From contig NHNW01000014.1 in the NCBI GenBank assembly GCA_002786025.1, positions 744,001-808,000 on the forward strand: 64,000 nt of DNA, written 5' to 3'. Source of the stretch: Zasmidium citrigriseum. Its lineage: Eukaryota > Ascomycota > Dothideomycetes > Mycosphaerellales > Mycosphaerellaceae. Numbering within the stretch: position 1 is the first letter of the stretch; every line of letters starts with the position of its first letter. The translations under genes were made by a program, and so were the position numbers. Of the stretch, positions 45 through 53,031 are shown piece by piece. A model generated the notes under the pieces. It saw only the letters and a program-made list of their open reading frames with translations. It was not told where the DNA came from and did no database searches.

Positions 45-1334
45 ATGTTCAACTGGGTCAAGCAGACGCATGTGCGAACCCAATCCCCATTCTCCCGCCG
101 CCGCACTAACCCATCGACTGCAGCGTGGGCATCACGGACCACCACTATGGTCCTGAGGGCATCCAATCCGTAGCGAAGCAGGCAACCGAGACGCCCTGCA
201 CCGAGCTCACCAAGAACGACCTTGCCTGGGAGGTCATTGACGGTACCAATGTCGAGACCAAGACCTTTTACGTAGTCGGCGACAATGGCCGCATCGCCTT
301 GGCCCAGATCATCTACAGCAATGTCATGTAAGGATCAATAAGAGAAGGACATATTCTAATGGCTGCTGATGTGTGAAATCAAGGGGTGTACGGACGACCG
401 CTCAGTTCAGCAGCAAGATCTTCTCCAACGATCCCAGCAAGCCGCACCTCTGGACCTCCGACAACCTCCACAACTTCCACTTCTCCAAGGACCACCAGAA
501 CTTCAAGGCCGATGGCTGTTCAATGGATATCAGCGAGGATGGAAAGAGCTATCACATTCAGTCATCAACCAGCAAGGATGCAAAGGTGGACCTGAAGTTC
601 ACTCAGGTGACACCAGGCTTCGTGGTGGGCAAGAACGGAACAAGCACTTTCGGCACGGATCCAGCACACCCATGGGGCAAGATGTACCACAAATTCTGGC
701 CCAGATGTCGAGTTGAGGGCAGCATTGAGACCAAGGATGGTCCGGTTGACTTCAAGGGCCTGGGTCTGTTCATTCACGCCATGCAGGGCATGAAGCCACA
801 TTTTGCAGGTGAGTGACATCAAGCTTTGAGGAAGGATTGGGTCGCTGAGATGTGACAGCCGCCAAATGGAACTTTGCTTGGGTGCCAGCACCAACCTACA
901 CCGCCGTCATGATGGAGTACACCACCCCACCCTCATACGGAGAGACTGTCGTCAATGTGGGTGGTCTCGTTAAGGACGGCGAGATCGTGTTCGCAGGTGC
1001 TTCGCCATCAACAAAAGCTCAACACACCGAAATCAAGGGCGATCCAGAGCCCAACTGGCCAGAGCCCGGCGCCGTTGCCTTTACGTGGGATGGCAAGACC
1101 AAGGACGGCAAGGACGTACACGCTGAAGTCAAAAGCGCGCTCACCAGGGTCGACCGTATCGATGTTATGGGAGAGGTGCCCAAGTTCGTGAAGCAGATCG
1201 TTGCAGGCGCCGCCGGAACGAAGCCATACATTTACCAGTACACGCCGAAGGTTGACCTGAAGGTTAATGTCGGTGGGGAGGAGAAGGAAGAGTCAGGCGC
1301 GCAGCTATTCATGGAGGCGACATTCATCTCGTAA
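45..1334 (+). CDS. svf1: Svf1-like survival factor (oxidative stress/sphingolipid protein)
   Basis: Four exons fit: 45-67, 124-327, 384-808 and 859-1334, giving 375 aa, normal for the Svf1 family. The N-terminus MFNWVKQ, then [29 protein letters not shown] and QFSSKIF are Svf1 N-terminal domain motifs, and the last exon holds the C-terminal lipocalin-like half ending at TAA. Yeast Svf1 is a peripheral Golgi/cytosolic protein needed for survival under oxidative stress and linked to ceramide handling. Introns 2 and 3 are 56 and 50 nt with GTAAGG and GTGAGT donors. Intron 1 only keeps frame if its donor is GC (GCATGT, positions 68-73) with acceptor CTGCAG at 118-123 and branch CTAAC, so it appears to be a GC-AG intron. 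The gene lies just inside the window edge and its promoter is mostly missing. Confidence 0.9.
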
Positions 1335-2250
1335 GGATCGCATTTGAATGATGGATACGGTACAGCATTCTTGTTTCGACATGCTGGAGTTGGTGGATGA
1401 AAGGCACGACAGCGACTCGTAATTACCCTACCTCTTGACCCCATGACCGGCATGCATTATGTGGCTATGGCCTACCCAAGCTTACATACGGGACAGATTA
1501 ATGACATGAGAATAGATTGTTCAGTCTCCCAAGATCCACTTCTTCTCGTATCATCACCCCGCCATGCCGTCTGTCGCATTCGACGAGCTTCCTTGATCGC
1601 ATCACCACGACTGCAACGACTGCAAACACTCGCCGCGACTGCCACATCCAAACGCCACGGAAGAAGCCGCATGAATCTACAGTGACCCAGTCTCCGCGCC
1701 TTCCATGCCGGGCTATGCGCATGTGCGTCGTCCGAGCAAAGTGAAAGATGGAGCGCGGACTTCAGAGCGTGCGTTTCCCAACCACTCCCGACGTGTTTTC
1801 ACACTTTCACCTTCCATCCGCTGCTGCTTGCCCATCCGTTGGGAGCCTCCCAGGACATGCCTTCGAACCTGGAGCTTCACTCTGGAGCCCGTTTGCATTC
1901 TGGGCTAGAATTCACATGTGAAAATCGGCTATACTACGGCTCGCTAAAGCAGCGCTTGCAAACGCTGCCGTCGCGACAGGAAGTAATAAATTTGAAGGCG
2001 ACCTTCCAACTTGACTTCACACTTACATCGTCGACACCGACGTCGACGGCGAGCAGTCGTCCACCGCGCTTGATATCGACAGCCCAGACCTTCGACGACG
2101 GCTTTACGGACCTTAACAGCACGATTTGAAGCAAGACACCCACCCGCTACTCAGGCAGGATCCTCAAAAAGCTACTTGCGACCAGTAAGATGGAAAACTT
2201 AGCCATTAAGTCAGCTTACAGTATACTAACGAGACGTAGAGACAGCAACC
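1335..2250. other. Intergenic region with probable 5' UTR intron of the first H4 variant
   Basis: I see no gene here. GTAAGA at 2185, a TACTAAC branch site at 2224-2230 and GACAG at 2241-2245 could form a 61-nt intron in the 5' leader, six bases before the ATG at 2251. Confidence 0.4.
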
Positions 2251-3044
2251 ATGTCTAGCAACCTCCACCAGAGCCTCACTAACAGCCGTGCGATGACGAG
2301 TAAGACTGCCTCGGCCATTAAGAAGATGCAGACGTCGCGCAAGTCTGTTGTAGGCTTTGGAGGTCCAGCAACTCGCGGCCAGAACGTCAACGAGAGTGAC
2401 GAAGATGACGACGAAGACATTGGCAAGTTCATTCTGAAGAGCGACGTCCACCGCAATGTCGCTCCGCCGGCCAACACTCAAGCTCAAGCTACTACCGCGA
2501 CTGCCCAGCCAGTCAACCGCCGTGGCCTGGCATTTGGCGTACGTCGAGGCGGAAAGCATCAGCCTCGCCGATTCCGGTAAGTTTCTCTTCTTGAGTCACT
2601 GTGATCTGCTCCCGGCTGACATTTTCGCCTTACAGTAAGATTTTGAAAGACAATATCTACGGCATCACCGCTCCGGACATCCGTCGCCTCGCTCGTCGCG
2701 GCGGTGTCAAGCGAATGAGCCACGAGATCTACGACACTACCCGTGGCGCGATCAAGAGATTCCTGGAAGACGTACGTTGCATTCCAATTGAGATTACGGC
2801 CTTGAATACTGACGTAAGTATAGATCCTCCGCGACATTGTTGCTGTCACCGGTACGTACATTCAGCTATTTTACTTCTTTGCGGCAAACTAATTCCTCGG
2901 AAGATCACTCCAACCGCAAGACTGTCACGACTATGGACGTCGTGTTCGCGCTGAACAGGAAGGGCCGCACCATCTACGTAAGTTTCGCAAGGTGTCGAGT
3001 TGTTGTTGTCATCTACTGACGAAGAATAGGGCTTTGACGATTAA
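2251..3044 (+). CDS. Divergent histone H4 variant with long acidic N-terminal tail (variant A)
   Basis: Five exons (2251-2576, 2636-2771, 2824-2851, 2904-2977, 3030-3044) encode 192 aa. Residues 110-192 are a complete H4 fold: [32 protein letters not shown] and the C-terminal TIYGFDD. By hand count about 54 of 83 positions match animal H4. The canonical [11 protein letters not shown] tail is absent. Instead there are 109 residues that are Ser/Thr/Asn-rich with an acidic run (ESDEDDDED, 48-56) and a basic stretch ([14 protein letters not shown]) just before the core. H4 is the partner of H3 in the nucleosome; a variant this divergent is probably specialised or expressed conditionally. Relative to human H4, K31, K77 and K91 are replaced, while K79 and R92 remain. 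The last two residues are Asp-Asp rather than Gly-Gly. A second variant follows on the same strand at 3739, sharing three intron positions. Confidence 0.88.
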
Positions 3045-3738
3045 GTCCTCGCATTGCAGCTTTGTGCCGGAAGAGACGGCTTGCGATCATGATGGAAGGC
3101 AGACTCAGCAGGGAAACGTCAGGGCTCCTGGGAGATGAGCAGGAACTTGGAGCAGCAAACATCGGAATTGAAAGATCTCAGCAGAAGCCGCATTCTGCGA
3201 AGGAGACCGGTCGCAGAGGCCGAAGAGCAGGACAAGCAATTTCCTGGATTGAATTATGGCCATAGTAAGACACCATCGAATCCAACGTGGCGAAGAATCG
3301 TCGCTCGCTGGCCTCTGGAACCAATTTGTTTATAAGTCTTCCAAGTGTGATTTGTCCTCCGCTCATCATGTCAAACGCTTCGCAATGACTTCGGTGGAAA
3401 GACGATGTGAGCACCGCGATACAAAAAGAAAACACTTGGGCGCAGCACCCGCCCACGGCCGTGAGTCGCGGCAATCAGTGTCTGAGCGTGAAAGAAGAAG
3501 TGGAAGGTCACGGAGTGAAGTTGAGATCCTAGTCTCAGTAGATCTGTTGTTTCAAGCTAGTGCATGTTCGAGCAAATTTGAGTGCTTCTATTGGCCAAGC
3601 AAGCGAAGGTGGTCTGCACTCCGAGACTATCACCTCGCCGCTTGCGCTTCACTGCCAGCCACAACAACAACACACTCCTCTATTCACTTCTCCACGGCTA
3701 AGCCCGCATTTACTAGCGCCCATTTTTCTCCAGCAGAA
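3045..3738. other. Spacer between the two H4 variant genes
   Basis: No separate gene is seen. The frame that enters variant B at 3739 is open back to an ATG at 3256, so a much longer tail is possible, but the stretch from about 3650 to 3735 is C/T-rich like a fungal 5' leader and I favour untranslated sequence. Confidence 0.4.
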
Positions 3739-4339
3739 ATGGCGCGAACAATTATCCGGTCGGACGTCCCTCACGCCAGCAGCTCTTCTGCACCAAACCG
3801 ACACTCGGGCGCCGGCATTCGCAGCAATATGGGCGGCGGGAAAAAGGGAATCGGCATGGGAGTAGGCGGCAAGGGCCTTGGGAAGGGAGGAAAGGATGCG
3901 AAGCGTCACCGGTGGGTTGGGGAAATGGCCTCCTCTACACTTGCCGTTACTAACATTACTTATAGCAAAATCCTCCGCGACAACATCCAAGGCGTCACGA
4001 AGGGCGACATCCGCCGTCTCGCCCGCCGTGGTGGAGTCAAGCGCATCTCAGCGACGATCTACGAGGAGACCAGAGCGCAACTGCGGCGGCGTCTCGAACT
4101 GGTGAGTTCCTGCGACCTTCCATGCTACACTGGATCGATATGCTAATGTCATGCGGCACAGCTCCTCAAGGACATCTGTCTCGTGGTGGAGACGTGCGGT
4201 CGGAAGACGGTCTGCGTGACCGATGTTGTGTTTGCTCTGAATCGTATGGGCAGCACCATCTACGTAAGTCATCGCCCTCACTGGGGTGGTCGAAGCTGTT
4301 ACTGACAGTTGGCAGGGATTCGGTGAAGGCTCGCGCTGA
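3739..4339 (+). CDS. Divergent histone H4 variant B
   Basis: Exons 3739-3911, 3966-4101, 4162-4263 and 4316-4339 give 144 aa. Residues 59-141 are an H4 core: [32 protein letters not shown], then a very altered second half ([13 protein letters not shown]), [13 protein letters not shown] and IYGFGE, followed by GSR. By hand count about 51 of 83 core positions match animal H4. Unlike variant A it keeps a canonical-looking tail (GGKGLGKGG, then AKRHRK) with an extra Lys-Asp inserted between them. Three cysteines in the core are unusual for H4. Introns after the RHR arginine codon (phase 2), after the RLEL segment (phase 0) and before GF (phase 0) sit exactly where variant A has introns, so the two genes share ancestry. 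The start is uncertain: ATG 3739 has a good context, ATG 3829 (MGGGKK) would give 114 aa, and the frame is open further upstream. Confidence 0.83.
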
Positions 4340-6726: not shown

Positions 6727-7383
6727 TTAAAGAAATTCGTTAGGGACCTTACAGTCCTCAGGGTCAGAAGTCCACACCGGCTGACCCTTCACGTTGATCA
6801 CCTCGACCTGCAGTGCTTTCGGCGATAGCTTGGCCATGATATCCTTTTCCATCTCCATCACAACACCATCCAATGTCGCTTGAGCATCAGCCTTGATTGA
6901 TGCTGCAACCTTCTCTAAATTCCCATAGCGGTTGTGTCCCTTCTTGAACCGGAGCAATTCCGGGTAGTCGCCAGGATCTTCGACGTGAAGGTGCTTGAGC
7001 TTTCCGAGGAGCTTCGTGGGAACATGTCGCTCGACCCACATTGCGCAAGTGATAGGACCGGTGAAGTTGAAGATGGTGCTTTGGTAGTAGGCTGACAGAA
7101 ACTCGTTGTAGATCTGCTTGCACACTCGTAAGAGAGCGGTGTTGGAGCGCTTTGCTTTGACTTTCATGTTGAATCGTTTCTGGCCGATCTTTGGCGGACG
7201 CATGAAGCAGCGGATCTTGACTTCGAAGTCGGCGCAGACGTATTCGTAGATCATGTCTCGAATCTCTTGTGGGAGGGACAGGAGGGTGGCTTCGTCATTG
7301 TCGTCTTGAGTGGCGGAGGTCGGTGCCGAAGTTCCCCGGTTGGCTGCAGGCTCAACAGGCTGTGGTCGTGAAAGCACTGCCAT
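6727..7383 (-). CDS. F-box/2EXR-like protein, cluster member 1
   Basis: Single exon, 218 aa. After a Pro/Ala/Thr-rich start comes the block LLSLPQEIRDMIYEYVC, which opens a large family of Dothideomycete proteins with an F-box-like or 2EXR-type N-terminus. Next come LLRVCKQIYNE plus YYQSTIFNF, a WVERHVPTKLLGKLKHLHV block, and the C-terminal LSPKALQVEVINV with WTSDPED. The same four blocks occur in order in the three genes upstream on the same strand (7804, 8828 and 9990), so this is one of four tandem paralogs. Function is unknown; F-box-like proteins can be substrate adaptors of SCF ubiquitin ligases, but no Skp1-binding evidence is visible here. This copy has diverged most in its middle part. 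Confidence 0.8.
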   Translation of the reverse strand: MAVLSRPQPVEPAANRGTSAPTSATQDDNDEATLLSLPQEIRDMIYEYVCADFEVKIRCFMRPPKIGQKRFNMKVKAKRSNTALLRVCKQIYNEFLSAYYQSTIFNFTGPITCAMWVERHVPTKLLGKLKHLHVEDPGDYPELLRFKKGHNRYGNLEKVAASIKADAQATLDGVVMEMEKDIMAKLSPKALQVEVINVKGQPVWTSDPEDCKVPNEFL

Positions 7384-7803
7384 GGTATCGGGATGAAGTG
7401 AAATTCAGGCTGCTGTTTGCTGTTTGTGAAGCTTTAGGCAGAAGCTCGAACTATCAGGAAAGAGCGCTCGGACGCTAAAGTTTAGCGAGCGTCACTAGCG
7501 CCGATCGCACGTGAATGTGACAGGGGTGTTGCAAGGAAAGCACAACACAGGAGCAAGGACTTCATTGTTTCTGTGTTCAGAGCTATATGGGTCTTTAAGA
7601 CATCGTTGATGTTTTTGTTTGCAATCGCTGGCTTCTTTATCATGTGTCGCCGACTGTATCCGTCGGAAGCCACGCCTCTGGTGCTCGCTCTCACATCTTT
7701 CGCAATACCGGAGCCGCTTCTTAGTTCCCAATGTCTCTGATTTGAAGCTCAGATCTTTCGTCCACCCTTCCGTCTGGCTCACTCGGCAATGCCCACCATG
7801 CCC
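7384..7803. other. Intergenic within the F-box-like cluster
   Basis: Promoter of member 1 and 3' flank of member 2; nothing else seen. Confidence 0.5.
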
Positions 7804-8430
7804 CTAGTCGGAGCAGGTTGTCTCCTCTCTAATAAAGGGCTTGAATGCCTCTGGTTCGCACGTCCAAGTGAGCTTCATATCTGTGTTGACCACCATAACT
7901 TGCAATGTGTTTGCAGAAAGTTTTGCCAGCTCGTACGGTTCCAGACTATGTCTGAAATTCGCAAGCGTTGAAATGCCCTCGTGCCGGATCACACAAGTAT
8001 AAAAATCTCTTACGGCCTGATCAACTGTGTTGAGCATCTCTTGCGTAGTCTTCTGTCTCCACGTGCACGCACAGCCGCTCGGCTCGTGGATTCGGAGGTT
8101 CTGAATCTTGCTCACGTGATTGAGTGGAACAAGGTAGCGTCTGAGCCAATCTGCACAGACATGCGCATCTGGGAAGCTGAAGACCGAGTGGTGGAAGTAG
8201 ATAGGAGTCGCCTCTTTGCGAATCTGGCTGCAGGTCTGGAGGATGCCGATGTTGGAGTCGGTTGCGCTGAAAACGGCGAATGGGTTCTTGGTGTCCATCG
8301 GGTTCTTCGAGAGAGTCGCCTCGACGCTGACCTCCACACCCTCGCAGGCGTACTCCCAGATGAAGTCACGGAGCTCCCGAGGTAGCGTGAGCAGTGCCGG
8401 CTTCTCGTCTTTGGTGTCGTCGGTGTCCAT
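7804..8430 (-). CDS. F-box/2EXR-like protein, cluster member 2
   Basis: Single exon, 208 aa, starting MDTDDTKDEKP. Blocks in order are LLTLPRELRDFIWEYACEGVEV, ILQTCSQIRKEATPIYFHHSVFSF, WLRRYLVPLNHVSKIQNLRI, and LSANTLQVMVVNTDM with TWTCEPEAF. The YACEGVEV, CSQIRKE and PIYF stretches are closest to members 3 and 4. There are no membrane segments or signal peptide, so it is probably an intracellular protein. Its role is unknown; a second ATG-rich frame overlapping on the same strand (8112-8534) is a shadow of this gene. Confidence 0.8.
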   Translation of the reverse strand: MDTDDTKDEKPALLTLPRELRDFIWEYACEGVEVSVEATLSKNPMDTKNPFAVFSATDSNIGILQTCSQIRKEATPIYFHHSVFSFPDAHVCADWLRRYLVPLNHVSKIQNLRIHEPSGCACTWRQKTTQEMLNTVDQAVRDFYTCVIRHEGISTLANFRHSLEPYELAKLSANTLQVMVVNTDMKLTWTCEPEAFKPFIREETTCSD

Positions 8431-8827
8431 AATGTCGACCGTGGGGGGTCGAACGGCGACGTCCCTGGATGAAGAGGAGGTTGACTGATGGCAGCGGTGT
8501 GAGTAGAGAGAGGTTTGGTGGGAAGAAAGAACAAGAATTTGCCATGTGGATTTGAAGAAGCGCTAAACTTCCTGCAACACTTTCACATGTGAGGGTCCAA
8601 GCTCCTTGAGTTCATTCACTCGGCCATCGCCGGAGGTAGAGCTGATGCGTTGCAAGGAACATTTCCCAAATTTATAATCAATTCACTGTCCAGCTAGCTA
8701 GGCAGTTGAGGTGGATCGCTCCTGTCTCCTCTCTCTCTCCGACGTCGAACATCCCGCAAAAGCCACACCCACGACTTCGTGCAACCTTCGACATTGGAAG
8801 AGGACGCCAAAGCACTCCATAACCGCA
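8431..8827. other. Intergenic within the F-box-like cluster
   Basis: Nothing recognised apart from the presumed promoter of member 2. Confidence 0.5.
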
Positions 8828-29966: not shown

Positions 29967-32900
29967 TTACACGCTGACCTCTCCTGGGTCGTCGATGATG
30001 CTGTCTGTCCAGCCTTTGTGCGTCGTCGCATTTGAAATGCCTCTCTGATCAATGGCCATTCCTTCGCCTTCGCCTCGTTCCACGTAGCGCTGTCGGTGCA
30101 GGTCCTGATAGATCTTCTGGAAGTACATTCGCAATGACCGCAATCCTCGCAAGTATCCCCAGTCGATGCTCTCAGGATGCATTGGTGGACACGGCTTTCG
30201 CAAAACATGCTCCATGTCCTCGGCGGTGACGCAGTTGGCGAAGTCGACAATCTTGAGCTTGATCTCTGGATACTGCGCTGGCTTGCCATCTTCGTTGAAC
30301 TCTGGCTTCACTTTGCCCTCCTCGTCAGCGTTGCCCCGATCATAGATCATGAGCAAGCTACTCGCGTATAGTCGATATCCAGGCAAAGAGCGAATGATTC
30401 GATCCAGGTCATTGATCTTCTGCAAGACGGATGGGATGTGCTTGAGGGCCTGAGCATGACCGATCCCATCGAAGAAGAACCGCGTCAGTGCATCCTGGAA
30501 CTCGCTTCCAGCCTTGAGGTCGCGACCGAAGTACTTGTCTTCAAACTTGTATCTCTGCTCACGGACATTGTACACCTGCATGCCGCAGACACGGACGCCA
30601 AGCTCACGAGAAGTCGTCGTCTTGCACTTCATACGTTGCGAGGCTTGCTTCTTCTCATTGGCTTCAACGCCGTATTGCCGAGTGCCCATCTTCAGATCGA
30701 GGACACAGGGCTTCTGCATGCCTGCCGTCAAGTCCTCGAGCAGGAGGAAGCGCTCTACTCGCTCATCTTGCTGGACGAGCGATGTCTCCGGGTTGCGCGG
30801 CTCTGGGCTGCCAAAGCTGATGGCTGGTCCAAGTCGAGGGAGTTGCCGAGTCTGCGGAACGTCCTGACCACTGACCATGGCTTCAAGCTTGCTCTGCGGC
30901 GGGACGGGCTTGACTGCGTCTTTGACGGGTTGCTTCTTGCTGACATCCTCCATTGCGAAGACGTCCTCGCCGTCTGCAGTGTAGGCCTCTTCTTCATTTT
31001 CGTGAAACTCGAGATCTCCGCGGCTTCCCTCGATATCTGTCGGCTTGCGTCGCAGTCCACCACCTGAGTGGCGTCTTCGATGATGACGGCTGGTAGACGG
31101 CACGTTCAGGCCTTGGTCGCCATCCATCTCTGCGCTCTTGCTTAGGGCTTTCCTGCTCTCCAATACACGCCTGTCCAAATCCGAGTTCGCTTGATCTGCA
31201 TCCTCGCTCATAACATGCTGCAGCCGAGACAGCGGGATCCCATTCTCAGGCTCGTCTTTCGAAGTCATGCGCTGGAGCAATGGGATGTCGACCGAGTTCT
31301 GGCGATTGCTGTGGGTGTTGTACTCCTTTCGCAAGTACTTGGGGATCTTGCGAAGAGACCTCGCATGATGTGCACGCTCCCTACGATCGTGCTTGTAGAT
31401 GTGAGGTGGTGCAAACACTTCCCGCAGGACGTGATCGCGAAGTGTCTCATTAACCGATGTAAAGCCCCAGCTCGATGCGGGTTTCAGAGACGGCCGACGC
31501 GAGTTTCCGTTAGATGTCTCATCATCGCTTTGGTTTTCGCGCAGAGGTGGCGAGGTACTTGCTCGATGCATGTCCGGGGTGGCTGAGCGTGGGGGCACCC
31601 GAAACAGGTCATCTGGTATAAGGTGCCTGTTGTTCTCGAAGATGACCTGTGGGATTGCCTGAGGCGTTTGCATTGAATGACTAACCATTCGGCTCTGGTC
31701 ATCCTGTTTCGACTTGTCTTCCGCCAGTGGCTTGCTTGTCTCAGCCTTGGCATCCTGCTGAAGGGCTTCATCTGACGCCGTCTTTCGCCGCTTCTTCTGA
31801 TCTTTACGGTACGTGACATTCAACACGCCAATGTAACGAGGCATAAAGCCCAGTAATTCAGTGTGATGCTTTTCTACGGTCTCGTAGAATTTGTTTTCTT
31901 TGCTATTAAGCTGTTTGCACACCGCCCTCCGTGAGAAACGATAGACAGGGGTGTGACCGCCGACCTGATGCTTGTACGGTTTCAACTCCACTGCCCCAAT
32001 TGGTGCAGGCGCATGAGAAGGTCTGCGCTCCGACGGGCGCGGTCGCTGAGCTTTCATTCGAGGGGTTGCGGTTGGGGTCGTTTCGACATCGTCTTCTTCG
32101 CCAGATGCCGATACATTGGAGTCGTATCCATGCGCATCTGATTCGTATTCCGAGTCGGAGAACAACTGCTGGTCAGCGGCCGCTGCAGGGCTTGGTAATT
32201 GATCGAACTCAACAACGGTCGAATGGCCCTGCAGTAGATCACTTGCTCCGTCAGACTTCAGCGAGACCTGCACATCATTGGAACCGAGATCCTCCCTCTG
32301 ATTAGCTGTTTGATCTTTGGGTCTTCGCTCTGCGACTTGGTCTTCTGTAGGTGAGTCGGCAATGGTAACGCCCTGGTGAGGGTAATATGTGGCAGACGAA
32401 ATGTGTTCCTGGTCCGAGTCCTCATCGTCCGTCTTGGACCGGGCGAGCTCCTCAACCTGACGATGCGGCGCTTTTGCAGGGACATGTTTCGATTGGGTTA
32501 CCCTGGTAGGTTGCAGATGGTCATGGTTTCTGATCTCTTCCAACAAATCCAATGGTAGCTTCTTCGCCATACGCTCCTTCGAGACGGTAACGTCGTTGCC
32601 GTCTTCCGTGCTTTCAATATCTTCGGCGATAGTGGCCGGTCTCTTATCATGAATTTCCTTTGAAAGTTGAGATTGTATCCCTTCCTTCACCTTCGACTTC
32701 TTCTCATTCTCTCTCCTCTCTTCTGCTTCATTCTCTTTGAACAATCCCAGATAGTGACTGGCCTTTCGACTGCGGACGTTCGCCATCGGAGGCTCAGGCT
32801 GGGGCAACTGAGCATCAATGATCTTGTCAACCCCCAAGCTCGTCTTGCTTCGAGTCCTCTGTGTCTCAGCGATGGTCATCCCATTCATCTTCGCCTGCCC

Positions 32901-33728
32901 TTGCCTCCATGACCTGTACTTCTCTCGTTCTGCACTCTGCTCGGGGTCGGCAAAGTCAATGGCCCTCACAGCAGATGCGGGCGTTTTCGGAAGTTCATCT
33001 CGCCTCAATGGAGTATCGGGAAGTTGAGGGTCGTGGTTCGGCTGGGAGTTCAGGATGTTAGAGACGGGCAGCGAGCTGAGATCGTGCAAGTCGTACAGCG
33101 AGCGACGGTGGTATTGTGGCGGTAGACTGGTCCTGCTGGGCCGCGAGGTGTGTTGATATGATGAATGATGGAATAGCGGTACGGCGTAGGGCGGGATGTC
33201 CTTGAGGGCAGGAGAGAAGTCGACCGAGTGACTTCGCAGAGGAGAGGCCGCCATCATGGCCGGCGAGGATGATGTTTGCTGTGTTTGCTCGTTCCTTCCG
33301 TCGACGTCGTCCGCGCTCCTGCCCTCTTCCCGCACGCCTGGCGTTGGCGGAATGGTGGGCGTGGTCACAGAGTCCGGACTGGGGAAGTAGTGGGTAGCAA
33401 AGATGCTGTCTCGCTCGGACAATTGAGGGCGGACAGCATCCTGGATGGAGGGCCCGGCGTGGGAAGTACGACGGCGGCGATTTGGGGAGGTTTTGGGGGC
33501 CTGAGCAGGGAGGTGCGAGTGAGTCGTGCGCTGCGGCGACTTAGCCAGGGAGGGAGAGGTGGACGGTGCTATGTCGAGGCTCTGCTCCTGGCGCGGTGTG
33601 GTGTCGTGTTCGCCGGCAGTGCTGGAAAGAGGCTCACGGGCATCGTGGGCAGCGGACGAGATCTGCTTGGATCTCGCAGGGCGACCCTTATTTGACGTCG
33701 GGTCTCGCGCTCCAAAAGCCGGTGCCAT
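29967..33728 (-). CDS. kcs1: Inositol hexakisphosphate kinase (Kcs1-type)
   Basis: Single exon. The frame is open from 34184, but the likely start is ATG 33728 ([10 protein letters not shown]), giving 1253 aa; the 152 codons before it are low-complexity leader. Residues 1 to about 960 are disordered, Ser/Pro/Arg-rich, as in other fungal Kcs1 proteins. The kinase domain is C-terminal: [13 protein letters not shown] near residue 1005 (the PxxxDLKxG-type inositol-binding motif of the inositol polyphosphate kinase superfamily), [12 protein letters not shown] and [12 protein letters not shown], then the [10 protein letters not shown] motif near 1125 and KIVDFANC near 1162. Kcs1 converts IP6 to 5-PP-IP5 (IP7), affecting phosphate homeostasis, vacuole form and stress responses. 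The kinase signature residues all appear intact. Confidence 0.93.
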
Positions 33729-35675
33729 ATGAGGCTGACCATTGAGGCGGGCAGACGCACGCAGCACAGCAATTGGCAGGGAGAGCAGGGAGAGGGTGCG
33801 CGGGAGTCGGATGCCGCATTCGATAAGGCTTAGGCCAGCAGCACCGCGTGGGTCGGCGCAGTCTGCGACAACTGCAGCAGGAAGCGATGCAGCAGAGACG
33901 ATGCCAGCGGGCAGAACGTGCAGGCAGCGAGCGGCGGCGCAGGGCGGTCGGAGTTGTTTGGGCGCGGGCACGTTGGAGCACAGCGGGCTGTCACTGGAGG
34001 TGCGAAGTCGAGTGTCTGACGTCGCGAAGCCAAGTCTTCCTTCCACCGCCGCCCAGCACCAGCAAAGCGCAAGCGTCGACTCGCTCCAGCTCCCCCTGGA
34101 GATCGCAGCACCCACCGCACTGGCAATCGTGGCGCGCGGCAGAAATGCCGGCCGTGGATTGCTGGAGCCGACGACTCTACCCATCGTATCTCACACACAT
34201 CACCGCCTATCAAAACGTCTATCTCCCACCACATGCACCGCAATCAGACCCAACATATCCAACTGCATCCCTTCCCCGAAACACCCCTTCCTCTCCTCGC
34301 CACGACAGCAGCCGTATGCCTTCGCCAATGCGATTACCATCGCTTCCCATTCGCGTGCTCGTCTGTGCCCAACACCCCTGCCGGCCTCGCAAACACATGT
34401 GCAAAGCCCCGATACCAATCAACACAGCACGTTGTCACTGCCAGTGCTGCAACATCCGCCGTACTCACCGGCACTCCAGGATGTGCCCAGCAAAGACAGA
34501 CAGCGTCGTGCTGCCGACTTGCGGTCAGCGATATGCACCCGACTTTCACGTAATTGCTCGGCCCTCTAGCAAACGTTAATCATTCACATGAACAGCACGC
34601 TGTCTTTTGACTGGCGCCATCTCCGCAATTCGACTCTAGGTTTGTCGCCTCGTCCGGCCCGAGAGCCGCTGATGCCACTAGACTGCCGCTTGGAAGACTT
34701 CAGCTCGCGATCGAACGTCGATGGCCGGGTATCTGGGCCACCGCATCTCCCAGCAAACAGCAAGAAAAACAGCATCAACACCTATCCAAATGCCTCGGAC
34801 GAATCGACTGTCGTCTTCATACGATCAGACCCATCACGCATCACGTACGACCATGACAAGACAACCTTCCTGTTCCTGAACGACACACCTCTGGCAATAC
34901 CCCGGAGATTTCCCCCCAAGCGTCGCCATCCCAGCAACGACGCGAACAGCAAACCAACAACTGCGCCTCATCAGGAACGAAAAACGTGTCCAACATCAAT
35001 GGCTTCCATTAAACCCGCTTGTCACCGGTAAGGCTGAAACGACACATCATCATGATCAGATCCTCATCCTGTGGCAGTACGAATGGGACAAAGAAGGTCC
35101 ACTTTCAACAGCATCCTCGTCTCAACATGGAGCTTTGATCCCCGAAACAGAGAAGAGAGCTCACGTATGACCATGACCTGATGCTGATTCCGACTCATCT
35201 CCTGCCGCAAGGTGCCGTCGAGTCAATATTGAAAAAATCTCTGCACTTCCGATATGTCAGGATGCCGACCGAAAGTTTGCTTTCGGGATGGTATGACACG
35301 TCAACTACGGGCCGTATAACAGATAACATGTAGTCCGAATATAGGCCAAGAGCGTGAGACCACGTCAAAGATTGCTATGACTGTAAGTTGCTGACCGCAG
35401 GCTTGAAACAGCACGTTCTCAACCTACTGGTATCTGATCGATGCACGACTGGTAAAGGAGAACGTCAACAGGTAGGAAACAGGGCCTGGGTGACCAATGA
35501 GTTTCAACTTCAAGCCCTTTCATTTCTGCCATTCCAAAGTCACTCCACCATAGGTGGAATCTCATCGCTTCATTGCGTGCTTTTGCCAATATAATCATCA
35601 GTGTATCATACGCCATTCTCCATCTATTCACCCGCACGTCGCTGGCCAAGAGTCCGAGATCCACTGGAAACATTT
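33729..35675. other. Long spacer upstream of kcs1
   Basis: Bases 33729-34200 are probably the GC-rich kcs1 leader and promoter; both strands are open there by composition. From 34570 to 35031 a 147-codon plus frame exists without motif. I call no gene. Confidence 0.45.
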
Positions 35676-41777: not shown

Positions 41778-43277
41778 CTACCGCCTCCTCGGCATCAACC
41801 TAACATTAACCCCCGTCTGCATAACAAACCACCAACACTTCGTCTCCCACTCCCTCTCCGGCTTCGCCAGCTCCATATCAAAATGCAAGAACAACGTCGG
41901 AATCAACTTGCTCATCTCCATCCAACTGATATTCCTCCCCAAGCACATCCTCGCCCCGGATCCAAAAGCGAAGAAAAATCTATGCATATCGCCATTGTTC
42001 TCCTTCATCCAGCGTTCGGGTCGGAAGTTGTCGACGTCGGAGCCGTAGATTTCGGTGCTGCGGTGGATGACCCACGGGTTGGCGCCGATTACGGTGCCGC
42101 CCGGGAGGTGGGTTTGCGCGATTGTTGCGCCGCCTGGGGGGACCACGCGGGGGAGAGACATTCCTACTGCGGGATGGAGGCGGAGCGCTTCGTACATTAC
42201 GGCTTGGAGGTAGGGCATGCTGTCTGCTTCGGCGAGGGTGACTGGGTCGGAGAGTCTGCCTGCCGCTTTGCGGGCGTCGATTTCTTCTACGAGTTTCTGT
42301 TTGCAGGATGGGTTCTTGAGGAGATAGTAGATGATCGCTCGGGTGGAGATCGCTGTTGTGTCGGAGCCGGCGAAGATGTTGGATGTGGCCATGCTGACGA
42401 CGGCCTTGTCGTCCATTTCGAGGGGTTTGTCTTTCTGGGTTGCGAAGAGCTGGGAGAGGATGTCTTTTTGGTCGCCGCCGCGGTCTTTACGGGCTGTTAT
42501 TTCGCGCATGGCGAATTGGCGGAGGGAGCCGTGGCGGGCTGTGATGCCCAGATGGTTGCCAATATATGGCATGAGTCTGTCGTGGAGCCAGTAGAGGGAT
42601 GGGACCTGTCCGATCCAAGCGGCGGATTTGAGAGCTCCTTCGATCTGTTTGAAAGAGCCGTCGTCTTCGGCGACGTCGAGAAAGCCAAATCTCTTGGAGA
42701 AGGTGACTTCACCAATTACGTCGAAGGCAAAGAGCTGAACCCAATTGCCCATATCCAGGACTTGACCTGTTCGCTGCTTCATCTCATTGAGGAAGGCCAA
42801 GACAGCATTATTGACGTAAGGCTCTAGCATCCGTAGAGAGTCCATTGAGTAAGCTCGACTGATCAGACGTCTTTGCTCGCCATGGATCTTCTCGCTGCGT
42901 TCGGCGAACAGGTCGAACTTGCGGTGGCCTTGCCATACTGAATACCAGTCGCTTTTTCTGAACTTCGTACCAGCTCCATAGATGGTCTTGATAGCTGGTA
43001 GATCTGACACGCTCACTTCGTTGGGTCCTGTCCGTACCAGGTTGCCATGTTTCTTGTGCAGCTCAATCATGGTCGTGTTCATGTCGCCATCCCAGGCATG
43101 CTTGGTCATCCATAGTCGTGACAGACGAGCCCAGAAGGGGCCAGGAATTGAGGCAAGAGGATGGAAATAGACTTGATAGATGATGTAGCTGAGTGGCAGG
43201 GCGAGCAAAGCAGCAGCTAAGATGATGGGAGACGAAGCGAAAGCCATTGGAATTGCATTTGGGGTCTGAGGTGCCAT
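41778..43277 (-). CDS. Cytochrome P450 monooxygenase (pisatin-demethylase-like group)
   Basis: Single exon, 499 aa. An N-terminal membrane anchor (SPIILAAALLALPLSYIIY) is followed by FHPLASIPGPFWARLS, the proline hinge. The I-helix is FAGSDTTAIS, the K-helix ExxR is in YEALRLHP, the PERF-like block is FRPERWM, and the heme loop FGSGARMCLGRN has the axial Cys at 445. The WQGHRKFDLFAERSEKIH and RRLISRAYSMDSL blocks are typical of the fungal group that includes pisatin demethylase-like enzymes, many of which attack phenolic plant compounds. It would sit on the ER. It is divergent from the FAD monooxygenase at 44240 with about 960 bp between the starts, so they may be co-regulated. Confidence 0.93.
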   Translation of the reverse strand: MAPQTPNAIPMAFASSPIILAAALLALPLSYIIYQVYFHPLASIPGPFWARLSRLWMTKHAWDGDMNTTMIELHKKHGNLVRTGPNEVSVSDLPAIKTIYGAGTKFRKSDWYSVWQGHRKFDLFAERSEKIHGEQRRLISRAYSMDSLRMLEPYVNNAVLAFLNEMKQRTGQVLDMGNWVQLFAFDVIGEVTFSKRFGFLDVAEDDGSFKQIEGALKSAAWIGQVPSLYWLHDRLMPYIGNHLGITARHGSLRQFAMREITARKDRGGDQKDILSQLFATQKDKPLEMDDKAVVSMATSNIFAGSDTTAISTRAIIYYLLKNPSCKQKLVEEIDARKAAGRLSDPVTLAEADSMPYLQAVMYEALRLHPAVGMSLPRVVPPGGATIAQTHLPGGTVIGANPWVIHRSTEIYGSDVDNFRPERWMKENNGDMHRFFFAFGSGARMCLGRNISWMEMSKLIPTLFLHFDMELAKPEREWETKCWWFVMQTGVNVRLMPRRR

Positions 43278-44239: not shown

Positions 44240-46196
44240 ATGGCGGACAAGTACGACATCGTCATCGTTGGCGCCGGCCCAGTCGGACTCCTCCTATCGA
44301 CATGCCTCGCACGATGGGGTTACAAGATCAAGCACATCGACATGCGACCCGAACCGACCCTCACAGGACGCGCAGACGGCATCCAACCGCGATCACTAGA
44401 CCTCCTTCGAAACATGGACCTGAAGCGACCTATCATGGCGAACGAGCCAGCGAAGGTGTACGAAGTAGCGTTTTGGGACCCGTCAGAACGAGGCATTCAA
44501 AGAACAGGGACTTGGGCATCGTGTCCCAAGTTCATCGACGCGAGATACCCATTCACGACCCTTCTGCACCAAGGGTTGATCGAGCGAGTGTTCATTAACG
44601 ACCTGGAGAAGCACAACACACGGATACAGAGGCCGTGGAGGATAACAGGGTTCAAGAACGATGGGAAGGATGAGCAGTATCCCGTGGAGGTCAGCATTGC
44701 ACATGTGGACGGTGAGGAGCAAGGCTCGGAAACAGTAAGAGCAAAGTACCTATTCAGTGGAGAGGGAGCGCGAAGTTTTGTGAGAGAACAGCTGGGCGTC
44801 AAGATCACGCACAAGGATCCAATCGCGTATGTTTGGGGTGTGATGGATGGTGTTGTGCGGACAGACTTTCCAGATATCAAGGTATGCATTTGCAGATGTT
44901 GTGAGCATAGAGCCTTGCTAACCATCTTAGATGAAATGCACGATCCACTCAGATGCTGGCTCAATCATGGTCATTCCCCGCGAGAACAACATGGTCCGCC
45001 TATACATTCAAATCGCATCGTCCACGGACAAAGACTGGAATCCGAGAAAATCCGCCACGACCGAAGAAGTCCAGGCCGCTGCGAAGCGAATCATGAAGCC
45101 GTACTACGTAGAGTGGGACCGGGTGGAATGGTACTCAGTCTATCCCATTGGACAAGGTATCGCCGACAGATACACTCTCGATGAGCGGGTCTTCATGGGC
45201 GGTGACTGCTGTCATACACATTCTCCAAAGGCTGGTCAGGGTATGAACACTGCTTTCCTCGACGCACAGAATCTGGCATGGAAGATCCATCACGTGGAGT
45301 CTGGCTTCGCGGACCGGTCGATTCTGAAGTCGTACGAGAGCGAACGGAAGTATGTGGCGGAGAACCTACTGAATTTCGATGCCGAATACGCCAAGCTTTT
45401 CTCTCAAAAGCAGCCCTCAGCCGATGAGATCAAGACTGCCAGCAAGCAAGGCAGCGGTGACAGCCATGGTGAGGAGAATCCATTCATCAAGAAATTCAAG
45501 GAGTCTTGCGAATTCACATCTGGTTATGGCGTGGCCTACCTTGAGAACGTCTTCAACTGGTCGGAGAACCACCCTGCAAAACACCCACTCTTCTGCTCCC
45601 CCGAGAAAGGCACCACAGCACTTCGCTCAGGGAGGATATTGAAACCAGCGACTGTCACCCGGGTAGCCGATGCCAACGTCGTACACCTCGAGCAAGAAAT
45701 TCCCCTGAATGGCTCTTACCGGATATTCCTCTTCGGCGGCAAGCCTTCCAGGACGAAGAAAGCCATTGCCGACTTTGCGAAGAACCTGCAGAAGAAGAAC
45801 TCGTTCTACTCGGTCTATGCACGGGACGACATCGACAGCGTTGACTACCATGAGCGACACAACCCTCACAGCCACTTCTTCTCGATCAACACCATCTTCA
45901 ACGCTCACCGTCCTGAGATTGAGATCCGTGAGCTTCTGCCGGCACTCCTCTCGAGGTACCACGATCATGTGTACGCAGATGATGTGTGGGATCAGAGAGT
46001 GCCTGACGCTGAGGCTGCGGCTCACGCGAAGATGGGTCTGTCACAAGAGGATGGTGGTGTAGTCATCGTCAGGCCTGACGGGTATGTTGGATGCGTGGTG
46101 AAGCTCGAGGAAGGCAGTGGTACTGTCGATGCTTTGAACGAGTATTTTGCTTCTTTCTGCACGAAGAAGATTGGCGGAGAGCGAGCGCAGCTGTAA
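44240..46196 (+). CDS. FAD-dependent aromatic monooxygenase (phenol 2-monooxygenase family)
   Basis: Exons 44240-44881 and 44931-46196 (49-nt intron, donor GTATGC, branch GCTAAC, acceptor CTTAG, phase 0) give 635 aa. The Rossmann loop [14 protein letters not shown] is at 7-20, the aromatic hydroxylase DG-type block is [14 protein letters not shown], and the FAD ribityl motif [19 protein letters not shown] lies at about 303-321. The C-terminal part ([10 protein letters not shown] to the end) matches the thioredoxin-like dimerisation domain of phenol hydroxylases. The enzyme hydroxylates phenolic rings using NADPH and O2 in the cytosol. A leader frame extends upstream but has no ATG before 44240. 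Confidence 0.93.
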
Positions 46197-51129: not shown

Positions 51130-51582
51130 AGCTGGCACGTGTGGTGTCTTTCATTCGCTACTTGACGCAGCTTTTGGCTATCGTGAATGATAGACTTCTC
51201 GACTGATCTGATCGTGCCGGCCGCCAAAGCTTGACCGCATCTTGCCGCTTCATGGACGCCATTGGACGCTTCGCAAATATCTGCGCTCTGCAATTGTTCA
51301 GTGTGTTGATCCCTCAGACAAAGGGCGGAAGAAACCGAGCCGCATCGAGCCGGGGAGGATTTGGCGAAGAGCTTCGGGTTGGGAGAAATGCTCAGTGATT
51401 GAGATGTTTTCTCACTGTATCCTCAGCAGTATTTATTCCTATATTCTACCCGAACGCTCAGTTGAGACTATCACGTGCAAAGAACAAGTGATTCGAGCGG
51501 GTGAGGTCGGCGTTTGAGAATCGATCTCCGGCAGCACAGGCCAATAGGGAGTTGAAGTCAAAAAAGTTCAAGCATTGCCTTG
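51130..51582. other. Intergenic, no gene seen
   Basis: About 450 bp between two plus-strand genes; nothing specific recognised. Confidence 0.5.
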
Positions 51583-53031
51583 ATGCATCCTTGGACAGGC
51601 ATGCACGACCAATACGAGGCTATGTCAGCCCCTCACCTGACAGAATCTGACTCTGTTGTCCTTCAAAACTTATTTCAGGACATCGCCGACGACGACCAGA
51701 GAAGAAGCCAACCAGAGGACGAATCGCATGACCGAGAAGCGGGAAAGGGGCAGCATGACCAAGAAGCCATTGAACGCCTCAAGGCGTTTAACAACCCAAA
51801 AGATTCGGAATTTCGAGCCACCGTCTTTGTGACATGGGACGACAAGGACATTCATCCTATTTTGAACCAATGGATTGTGCGGCCATATGCGAAAATCGCA
51901 ACTGGAATTGTCCGGCATCCGACTGATGTGGTCTTCTTCACACACATCCTGCTATACTTGTTCGTCAATGTGCCAAGCGCGATCTGGCTCTTCTACAACT
52001 TCACATACCTTCATGGCGCTCTCCACGTGGCCTTCACCTTCTGGTGTACTGGATCATTTACGCTGATGATGCACAATCACATCCACAACAATGGAGTGCT
52101 TTCGAAGAAGTGGGCTTGGCTGGACCTGACATTTCCATACATTCTGGAACCGCTGATGGGCCATACTTGGGACTCGTACTATTATCACCATGTCAAGCAC
52201 CACCATGTTGAAGGCAATGGACCGGACGATCTTTCTTCAACGATTCGATACCAGCGCGACGATCTGCTGAACTTTTTGCATTACTTCGCCCGATTCTTCT
52301 TCTTCATATGGCTGGACCTACCACTATACTTCATGCGGAAGAACAAACCAAACTTGGCCGCCCGCGCCTTCCTTTCCGAAGTGGCCAGTCTTGGATTGAT
52401 GTACTACATGACCTTCCATGTCAACACCAGAGCGGCCATTTTCGTCTTGATCATTCCATTTGTACTCTTGCGACTGGGTCTGATGATTGGAAACTGGGGA
52501 CAGCACGCTCTGGTGGACGAAATTGAACCGGACTCCGACTTCCGCTCCAGCATCACTCTCATCGACGTTCCCAGCAATCGATTCTGCTTCAACGACGGCT
52601 ACCACACAGCTCACCATCTAAACCCACGACGACACTGGCGAGACCAACCTCTCCACTTCTTGCAATCGAAGGAGGCATTTCGCGAGGGACGGGCTCTGGT
52701 CTTCCACAACATCGACTACCTCATGATGACTGTCAAACTGCTTCAGAAAGATTACATGCATCTTGCGAAGTGCCTTGTCCCGATTGGAGATCAGATTGGA
52801 ATGTCTCAGCAGGAGATTGCGGATATGCTTAGGACGAAGACTCGGCGCTTCACAGAAGAAGAGATCCAGGCCAAGTTCAAGCAAGCACCAAAGCCCGCCG
52901 CAACCAAGCGCCGGAGATCGAGTCTGAGGGCAGCCATCTCGAAAGCAGCAAGTCGTATTCCTGAGGCTCTTGCTCCGATGGCACTGAGCTCGTCCAGAGT
53001 CGAAGCCGATCTGGTTCGAAAAGACCAGTAA
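51583..53031 (+). CDS. Membrane fatty acid desaturase
   Basis: Single exon, 482 aa from ATG 51583. The three histidine boxes of the membrane desaturase/hydroxylase fold are present: HNHIH at about 164-168, HHVKHHH at about 202-208 and HTAHH at about 341-345. They are separated by hydrophobic pairs such as VVFFTHILLYLFVNV, FTFWCTGSFTLMM, FFFFIWLDLPLYFM and AIFVLIIPFVLLRLGLMIG. The order HxHxH, HxxxHHH, HxxHH resembles the FA_desaturase family. Regiospecificity cannot be read. There is no cytochrome b5 domain; the tail is basic (KRRRSSLRAAISKAASR). It probably acts in the ER on lipid acyl chains. Confidence 0.85.
   Translation: MHPWTGMHDQYEAMSAPHLTESDSVVLQNLFQDIADDDQRRSQPEDESHDREAGKGQHDQEAIERLKAFNNPKDSEFRATVFVTWDDKDIHPILNQWIVRPYAKIATGIVRHPTDVVFFTHILLYLFVNVPSAIWLFYNFTYLHGALHVAFTFWCTGSFTLMMHNHIHNNGVLSKKWAWLDLTFPYILEPLMGHTWDSYYYHHVKHHHVEGNGPDDLSSTIRYQRDDLLNFLHYFARFFFFIWLDLPLYFMRKNKPNLAARAFLSEVASLGLMYYMTFHVNTRAAIFVLIIPFVLLRLGLMIGNWGQHALVDEIEPDSDFRSSITLIDVPSNRFCFNDGYHTAHHLNPRRHWRDQPLHFLQSKEAFREGRALVFHNIDYLMMTVKLLQKDYMHLAKCLVPIGDQIGMSQQEIADMLRTKTRRFTEEEIQAKFKQAPKPAATKRRRSSLRAAISKAASRIPEALAPMALSSSRVEADLVRKDQ

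Follow-up and report, generated by a model that had tools for sequence, protein, structure and literature searches.

Variants of histone H4 are few. In fungi, the widespread one is H4E, the product of hheA, which occurs in most Pezizomycotina and has hH4v of Neurospora crassa as an ortholog (PMC10878826). In Aspergilli, hheA sits between nudA and svf1, and this synteny is kept in Eurotiomycetes and Dothideomycetes; the introns of H4E genes are unlike those of canonical H4, of which two genes are usual in fungi (PMC10878826). In A. nidulans, the H4E protein is nuclear, interacts with H3 in BiFC and is expressed more strongly under nitrogen starvation, and deletion of the single H4E gene has no phenotype; the published account of the kind in related fungi assigns no role to it (PMC10878826). 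From the name "H4E1", which a figure legend gives to the protein of Cercospora zeae-maydis, we infer that more than one H4E copy per genome had been seen earlier, and the terms "tandem" and "H4E2" do not occur in the main text of the same paper (PMC10878826).

Here we describe two divergent H4 genes of Zasmidium citrigriseum. They lie in a window, the whole stretch of DNA that was analyzed, of 64,000 nucleotides (C46:744001-808000) in an assembly of 44.4 Mb and 148 contigs.

Structure and surroundings of the tandem genes

Gene 1 (2251-3044, plus strand; five exons, 192 aa) and gene 2 (3739-4339, plus strand; four exons, 144 aa) are intact and lie head to tail on the same strand, each with a frame that is open after splicing. 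The first-pass annotation had placed two spliceable H4-fold genes in tandem at 2251-4339, and both the genes and their coordinates hold. The seven coding introns all have GT-AG borders and lengths of 52-60 nt, and in every one of them a CTRAY branch-like motif begins 14-20 nt from the last base of the intron.

Exon 1 of gene 1 (2251-2576) encodes an extended N-tail, which we aligned with those of the Zasmidium cellare proteins P0005 and P0007; it includes the codons of a ten-residue block (residues 30-39; 2338-2367) and those of an acidic stretch, ESDEDDDED (residues 48-56; 2392-2418). Exon 2 (2636-2771, 136 nt) covers H4 residues 19-64 and is followed by exon 3 (2824-2851), exon 4 (2904-2977) and exon 5 with the stop codon (3030-3044), so that the protein ends in GFDD. 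Just before the ATG, the sequence contains a well-formed candidate 5′-UTR intron (2185-2239, plus strand; GTAAGA ... CTAAC ... TAG). In gene 2, exon 1 (3739-3911) encodes an N-terminal extension and then, from 3865, 16 residues of a canonical-like tail, with exon 2 (3966-4101, 136 nt), exon 3 (4162-4263, 102 nt) and exon 4 with the stop codon (4316-4339; GFGEGSR end) after it; all exons of both genes are on the plus strand.

The next gene upstream of gene 1 encodes Svf1 (exons 45-71, 125-327, 384-808 and 859-1334, plus strand; 376 aa; PF08622 at 217 bits and PF17187 at 201 bits), a published neighbor of hheA (PMC10878826). For the dynein heavy chain, the other published neighbor, the only family match (PF08393) is not adjacent but about 570 kb distant on this contig, and thus the synteny on the nudA side is broken. 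Downstream of the pair, on the side opposite svf1, lies a HET-domain gene (heterokaryon incompatibility, PF06985; 4687-6528, plus strand), followed by a gene with DUF7730 and 2EXR matches (6727-7386, minus strand) and a further ORF on that same strand (7804-8562). The ten searched of the 19 window ORFs of at least 300 aa include an inositol polyphosphate kinase frame (29967-34184, minus strand), a cytochrome P450 frame (41778-43277, minus strand), a phenol hydroxylase-like frame (44931-46196, plus strand) and a fatty acid desaturase-like frame (51580-53031, plus strand).

Family membership, divergence and age of the pair

Introns, a residue at position 33 and the svf1 neighborhood together suggest that both genes fit the ascomycete variant H4E. 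Genes 1 and 2 have three introns in common, a phase 2 intron at H4 codon 19 and phase 0 introns after codons 64 and 98, and gene 1 has one more (codon 74, phase 1). None of these positions is shared with the canonical H4 gene of the same genome, whose introns fall after CDS nucleotides 10 and 148. The spacings of the common introns (136 and 102 nt, phases 2/0/0) fit the intervals i1-i4 (29-32+16+88) and i4-i7 (63+18+21 in the text, 60+18+21 in the legend) of the published H4E model, four of whose seven introns (i2, i3, i5 and i6) are absent from both genes (PMC10878826). This is a match by spacing and phase rather than by absolute codon, and in A. nidulans H4E, going by its published residue numbers, i4 could lie 2-4 codons upstream of position 64 (PMC10878826); homology with the H4E introns is therefore likely, short of proof.

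Position 33 is Asp in both window genes. Of 239 proteins fetched by similarity to them, 226 have Ala there, eight Asp, four Ser and one Val, and the eight Asp33 carriers (P0005, P0007, P0221, P0230, P0238, P0030, P0107 and P0012) are all H4E-like, so that Asp33 serves as a marker within this sample rather than as a census. Seven of the eight come from fungi that we take to belong to Pezizomycotina; the H4E-like P0101, from a Glomeromycete, has Ala. The proteins also share with H4E a conserved histone-fold core, a longer and divergent N-tail (109 residues up to R19 in gene 1, 58 in gene 2), coexistence with canonical H4 and, in gene 1, the replacement of Lys16 by Arg, which is common among H4Es (PMC10878826). 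They differ from the published variant in being two tandem genes with fewer introns, three of which fit the model spacing, in the conserved block of the gene 1 tail, in a gene 1 C-terminus that ends at residue 102 and is no longer than that of canonical H4 (that of gene 2 is three residues longer), and in the canonical-like lysine tail that gene 2 retains (PMC10878826). The relation to Neurospora hH4v proposed in the first-pass annotation stands, and the kind is not a new one, hH4v being itself a member of the H4E family (PMC10878826).

A query with canonical H4 against the 44.4-Mb assembly (E ≤ 0.1, with the best candidates scored) gave five exon-level matches, two of them in a canonical gene (C71:459999-460351), which lies about 0.8 kb from a divergently oriented H3 gene, and three in genes 1 and 2. 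An H4E-like query from Sarocladium gave six, of which five are again genes 1 and 2 and the canonical H4, and one is weak (C54, E 0.98). Thus, a single canonical H4 gene was found, and a second may be missing from the assembly. Core identity to this canonical H4 is 54/83 for gene 1 and 53/83 for gene 2 (64-65%), in agreement with the 60-65% first estimated against animal H4, and 51/83 between the two variants; neither combines a near-identical protein with canonical introns. Both keep the fold and the DNA contacts of canonical H4, and gene 2 keeps its KRHRK patch, whereas the introns, the tails and residues Y72, Y88, K91 and A33 are altered. Over the core, dN/dS is about 0.19 between genes 1 and 2 (dN 0.43, dS 2.24), about 0.22 between gene 1 and canonical H4 (dN 0.26, dS 1.18) and about 0.32 between gene 2 and canonical H4 (dN 0.37, dS 1.15), values that are limited by pairwise dS near saturation (1.2-2.2).

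A PF00125 profile search of the genome gave 49 exon-level matches, 38 of them with internal TAG or TAA stops, and 17 of 20 loci examined (L004-L020, outside the window) hold stops. Fifteen of these 17 belong to three repeat families, with alignments of 3.2 kb at 86-96% identity, whose frames look histone H3-like and whose TpA/ApT ratios, at 1.3-2.3, are RIP-like. One copy (C120) has a hAT dimerization domain at a distance of about 0.8 kb, and the other ten hAT matches are not so near a listed copy. These repeats look like a decayed counterpart of the hAT-borne transduplication of H3-like sequences described in Pyrenophora tritici-repentis (PMC3538342). Besides canonical H3 on C71, the genome contains a strongly divergent H3-like frame without stops (C69:454895-455158), which might pair with the H4 variants or might derive from a repeat, and a frame that we read as CenH3-like (C54:839696-840058).

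In a midpoint-rooted tree of 29 core sequences, a kind of comparison already suggested in the first-pass annotation, each gene groups with proteins of other fungi. Gene 2 clusters with Z. cellare, Fulvia fulva and Dothistroma septosporum proteins (support 100/99); two Z. cellare proteins group with gene 1 (91/88, not starred by the tool). The tree keeps the two types apart; forcing them into one clade lowers the log-likelihood by 3.86 units, a constraint that the AU test does not reject (p 0.233). Because the core tree separates the types, a single tandem duplication of one H4E rests on the shared introns, Asp33 and location.

Z. cellare has both types, P0005 and P0007 being of the gene 1 type and P0221 of the gene 2 type (91% identity to gene 2 over 87 core columns), and the split therefore probably predates the separation of the two species. 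P0007 is intermediate, with a gene 1-type tail and a GFGE end like that of gene 2; P0221 as annotated differs from gene 2 in having no N-terminal extension. The listings give the same longest contig, of 666,478 bases, for P0007 and P0221 (strain ATCC 36951), and their genes are therefore probably linked. F. fulva P0230 and D. septosporum P0238 are of the gene 2 type, and P0230 shares RSDVPH in the extension with gene 2; no gene 1-type protein of either species is among the matches listed (the best 120 of 660, and the P0005 tail search). Of 660 and 7922 proteins in the two similarity searches, the 120 best of each are listed, those of the larger search coming from the 7975 scored candidates that share most words, and further H4E proteins may lie below.

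Core surfaces and tails of the two proteins

We compared the cores at positions that we take to contact DNA or to face H2B. The DNA-contact positions are kept at 10/10 in gene 2 and at 9/10 in gene 1 (I46M). Toward H2B, both genes carry Y72V, Y88F and K91N, and gene 2 also H75T. Tyr72 is altered in seven of nine other H4E-like rows (it is kept in P0107 and P0101), and the change at this position is therefore not special to the present pair; K91N occurs in three of the nine (P0221, P0230 and P0238). This pattern suggests that both variants would pair with H3 and bind DNA, with a weaker grip on H2A-H2B; H3 pairing is proposed because an interaction of H4E with H3 is in print for A. nidulans (PMC10878826). 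The predicted structure of P0005, the ortholog of gene 1, has a mean pLDDT of 65 and a pTM of 0.37, with blocks at 84-87 in residues 111-170; it matches nucleosomal H4 chains at an rmsd of about 1.6-2.8 Å over 75-80 columns and of 5-15 Å with the tail included. Such a match of the modeled core is expected from the sequence and adds little, and the model is uninformative on the tail.

The tail alignment bears out the two tail designs proposed earlier. Behind an extension of 42 residues, gene 2 retains a 17-residue canonical-like stretch with GGKGLGKGG and the basic patch KRHRK; the start codon of the gene is predicted, and the annotated gene 2-type proteins of Z. cellare and Dothistroma start inside the extension. 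The tail of gene 1 lacks the canonical lysine tail and has Arg16, Phe18 and the acidic stretch, which has a similar counterpart in P0005 and none in P0007.

The ten-residue block is identical in all three gene 1-type tails (gene 1, P0005 and P0007), as compared with a longest match of four residues among shuffled tails in 2000 trials. Outside the block, three of four comparisons leave the gene 1 tail indistinguishable from shuffled sequence (P 0.19-0.44), the fourth, with the part of P0007 before the block, giving P 0.028; the tails of P0005 and P0007 align outside the block on both sides (P < 1 in 500). Conservation of this sort is what a short linear motif within a free tail would show, here in three sequences of which two are from one species. 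A tail-only protein search with P0005 residues 1-98 gave 16 candidates, the single one at E ≤ 10 being the query, and no further copy of the block; its power is small because P0007 and gene 1 also fail to score.

It is conceivable, if rather doubtful, that the gene 1 tail is a histone mimic, in which QTSRKSVVG (PTARKSVVG in Z. cellare) would imitate the H3K9 site QTARKSTGG, or KSVVGFGG the H4 C-terminus RTLYGFGG, and which would recruit or decoy the readers and writers of H3K9 heterochromatin or compete for the H2A docking surface. In shuffles, the block resembles either site weakly at best, and neither resemblance was counted: shuffling the block only gives P 0.024-0.058 against H3 and 0.049-0.053 against H4; with whole tails, H3 1-44 as target yields P 0.20-0.28 and the final 18 residues of H4 yield P 0.011-0.013, with no correction for target choice. 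If the mimic reading were true, two tandem H4 variants would split chromatin duties; such a division was not found in the part of the literature on fungal H4 variants that we covered.

Alternative explanations and significance

We propose, with a probability of roughly two in three, that both genes are H4E (hheA/hH4v) variants which arose by tandem duplication beside svf1 and act as minor, conditional partners of H3 with divided tails. The duplication would have taken place at the ancestral hheA locus, probably before the separation from Z. cellare. Each product would most likely pair with H3 and bind DNA in the manner of H4, and both would most likely act as conditionally expressed substitutes for canonical H4, while the H2B-facing changes would yield looser octamers or tetrasomes. 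The share of gene 2 in this division would be the lysine tail and basic patch behind the extension, and that of gene 1 the long mixed-charge tail, whose one conserved short motif is probably a docking or modification site.

The separation of the two types in the tree, in which midpoint rooting puts the gene 1 type on the side of canonical H4, could instead mean that canonical H4 was copied independently at different times, one copy being a true H4E and the other a lineage-specific paralog that landed beside it. We regard this as unlikely, given that three introns sit at the same codon and phase in both genes and at none of the canonical positions, that both genes carry Asp33 and lie in tandem at the svf1 locus, and that the AU test leaves a single clade unrejected. 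A somewhat different possibility, and a quite improbable one, is that gene 1 is non-nucleosomal, its H4 fold belonging to a chaperone, kinetochore or transcription-factor-like complex with the 109-residue tail, its acidic stretch and its conserved block as the working part. The sole Pfam match of gene 1 is in line with such a role, being to PF15511 (CENP-T_C), below the cut-off (25.4 vs 28.1 bits); however, most of the listed H4 proteins have PF15511 as their precomputed Pfam domain too, and the match is therefore unspecific. Gene 2 matches no Pfam family, and neither gene exceeds the curated cut-off for a histone-fold family other than H4. Moreover, the retained DNA-contact residues, the predicted P0005 fold, from a model that is weak overall, and the BiFC interaction between H4E and H3 in A. 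nidulans (PMC10878826) argue against a wholly non-nucleosomal role.

Functionless, decaying duplicates are very improbable, even though deletion of the only H4E gene of A. nidulans leaves no phenotype (PMC10878826). The frames, splice sites and branch-like sites are intact, the core dN/dS is about 0.2-0.3, gene 2 is highly similar to P0221, each gene has apparent orthologs, and the TpA/ApT ratio at the locus (0.62 vs 0.52 for the window) is not raised as under RIP; the recent pseudogenes that the first-pass annotation had named as its refuting case are thus not supported.

The favored reading, that of an H4E pair with divided tails, adds to the described H4E kind a tandem arrangement whose split is probably older than the Z. 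cellare divergence, an asymmetry of tails, a conserved block, and, as judged from the sequences, DNA contacts that are kept alongside changes facing H2B. A pair of H4E genes in which one tail is canonical-like and the other is rebuilt around the block offers a handle on divided duties and on the binders of the block. Furthermore, because one canonical H4 gene was found here as opposed to the two that are usual in fungi (PMC10878826), the H4E variants may matter more in this genome.
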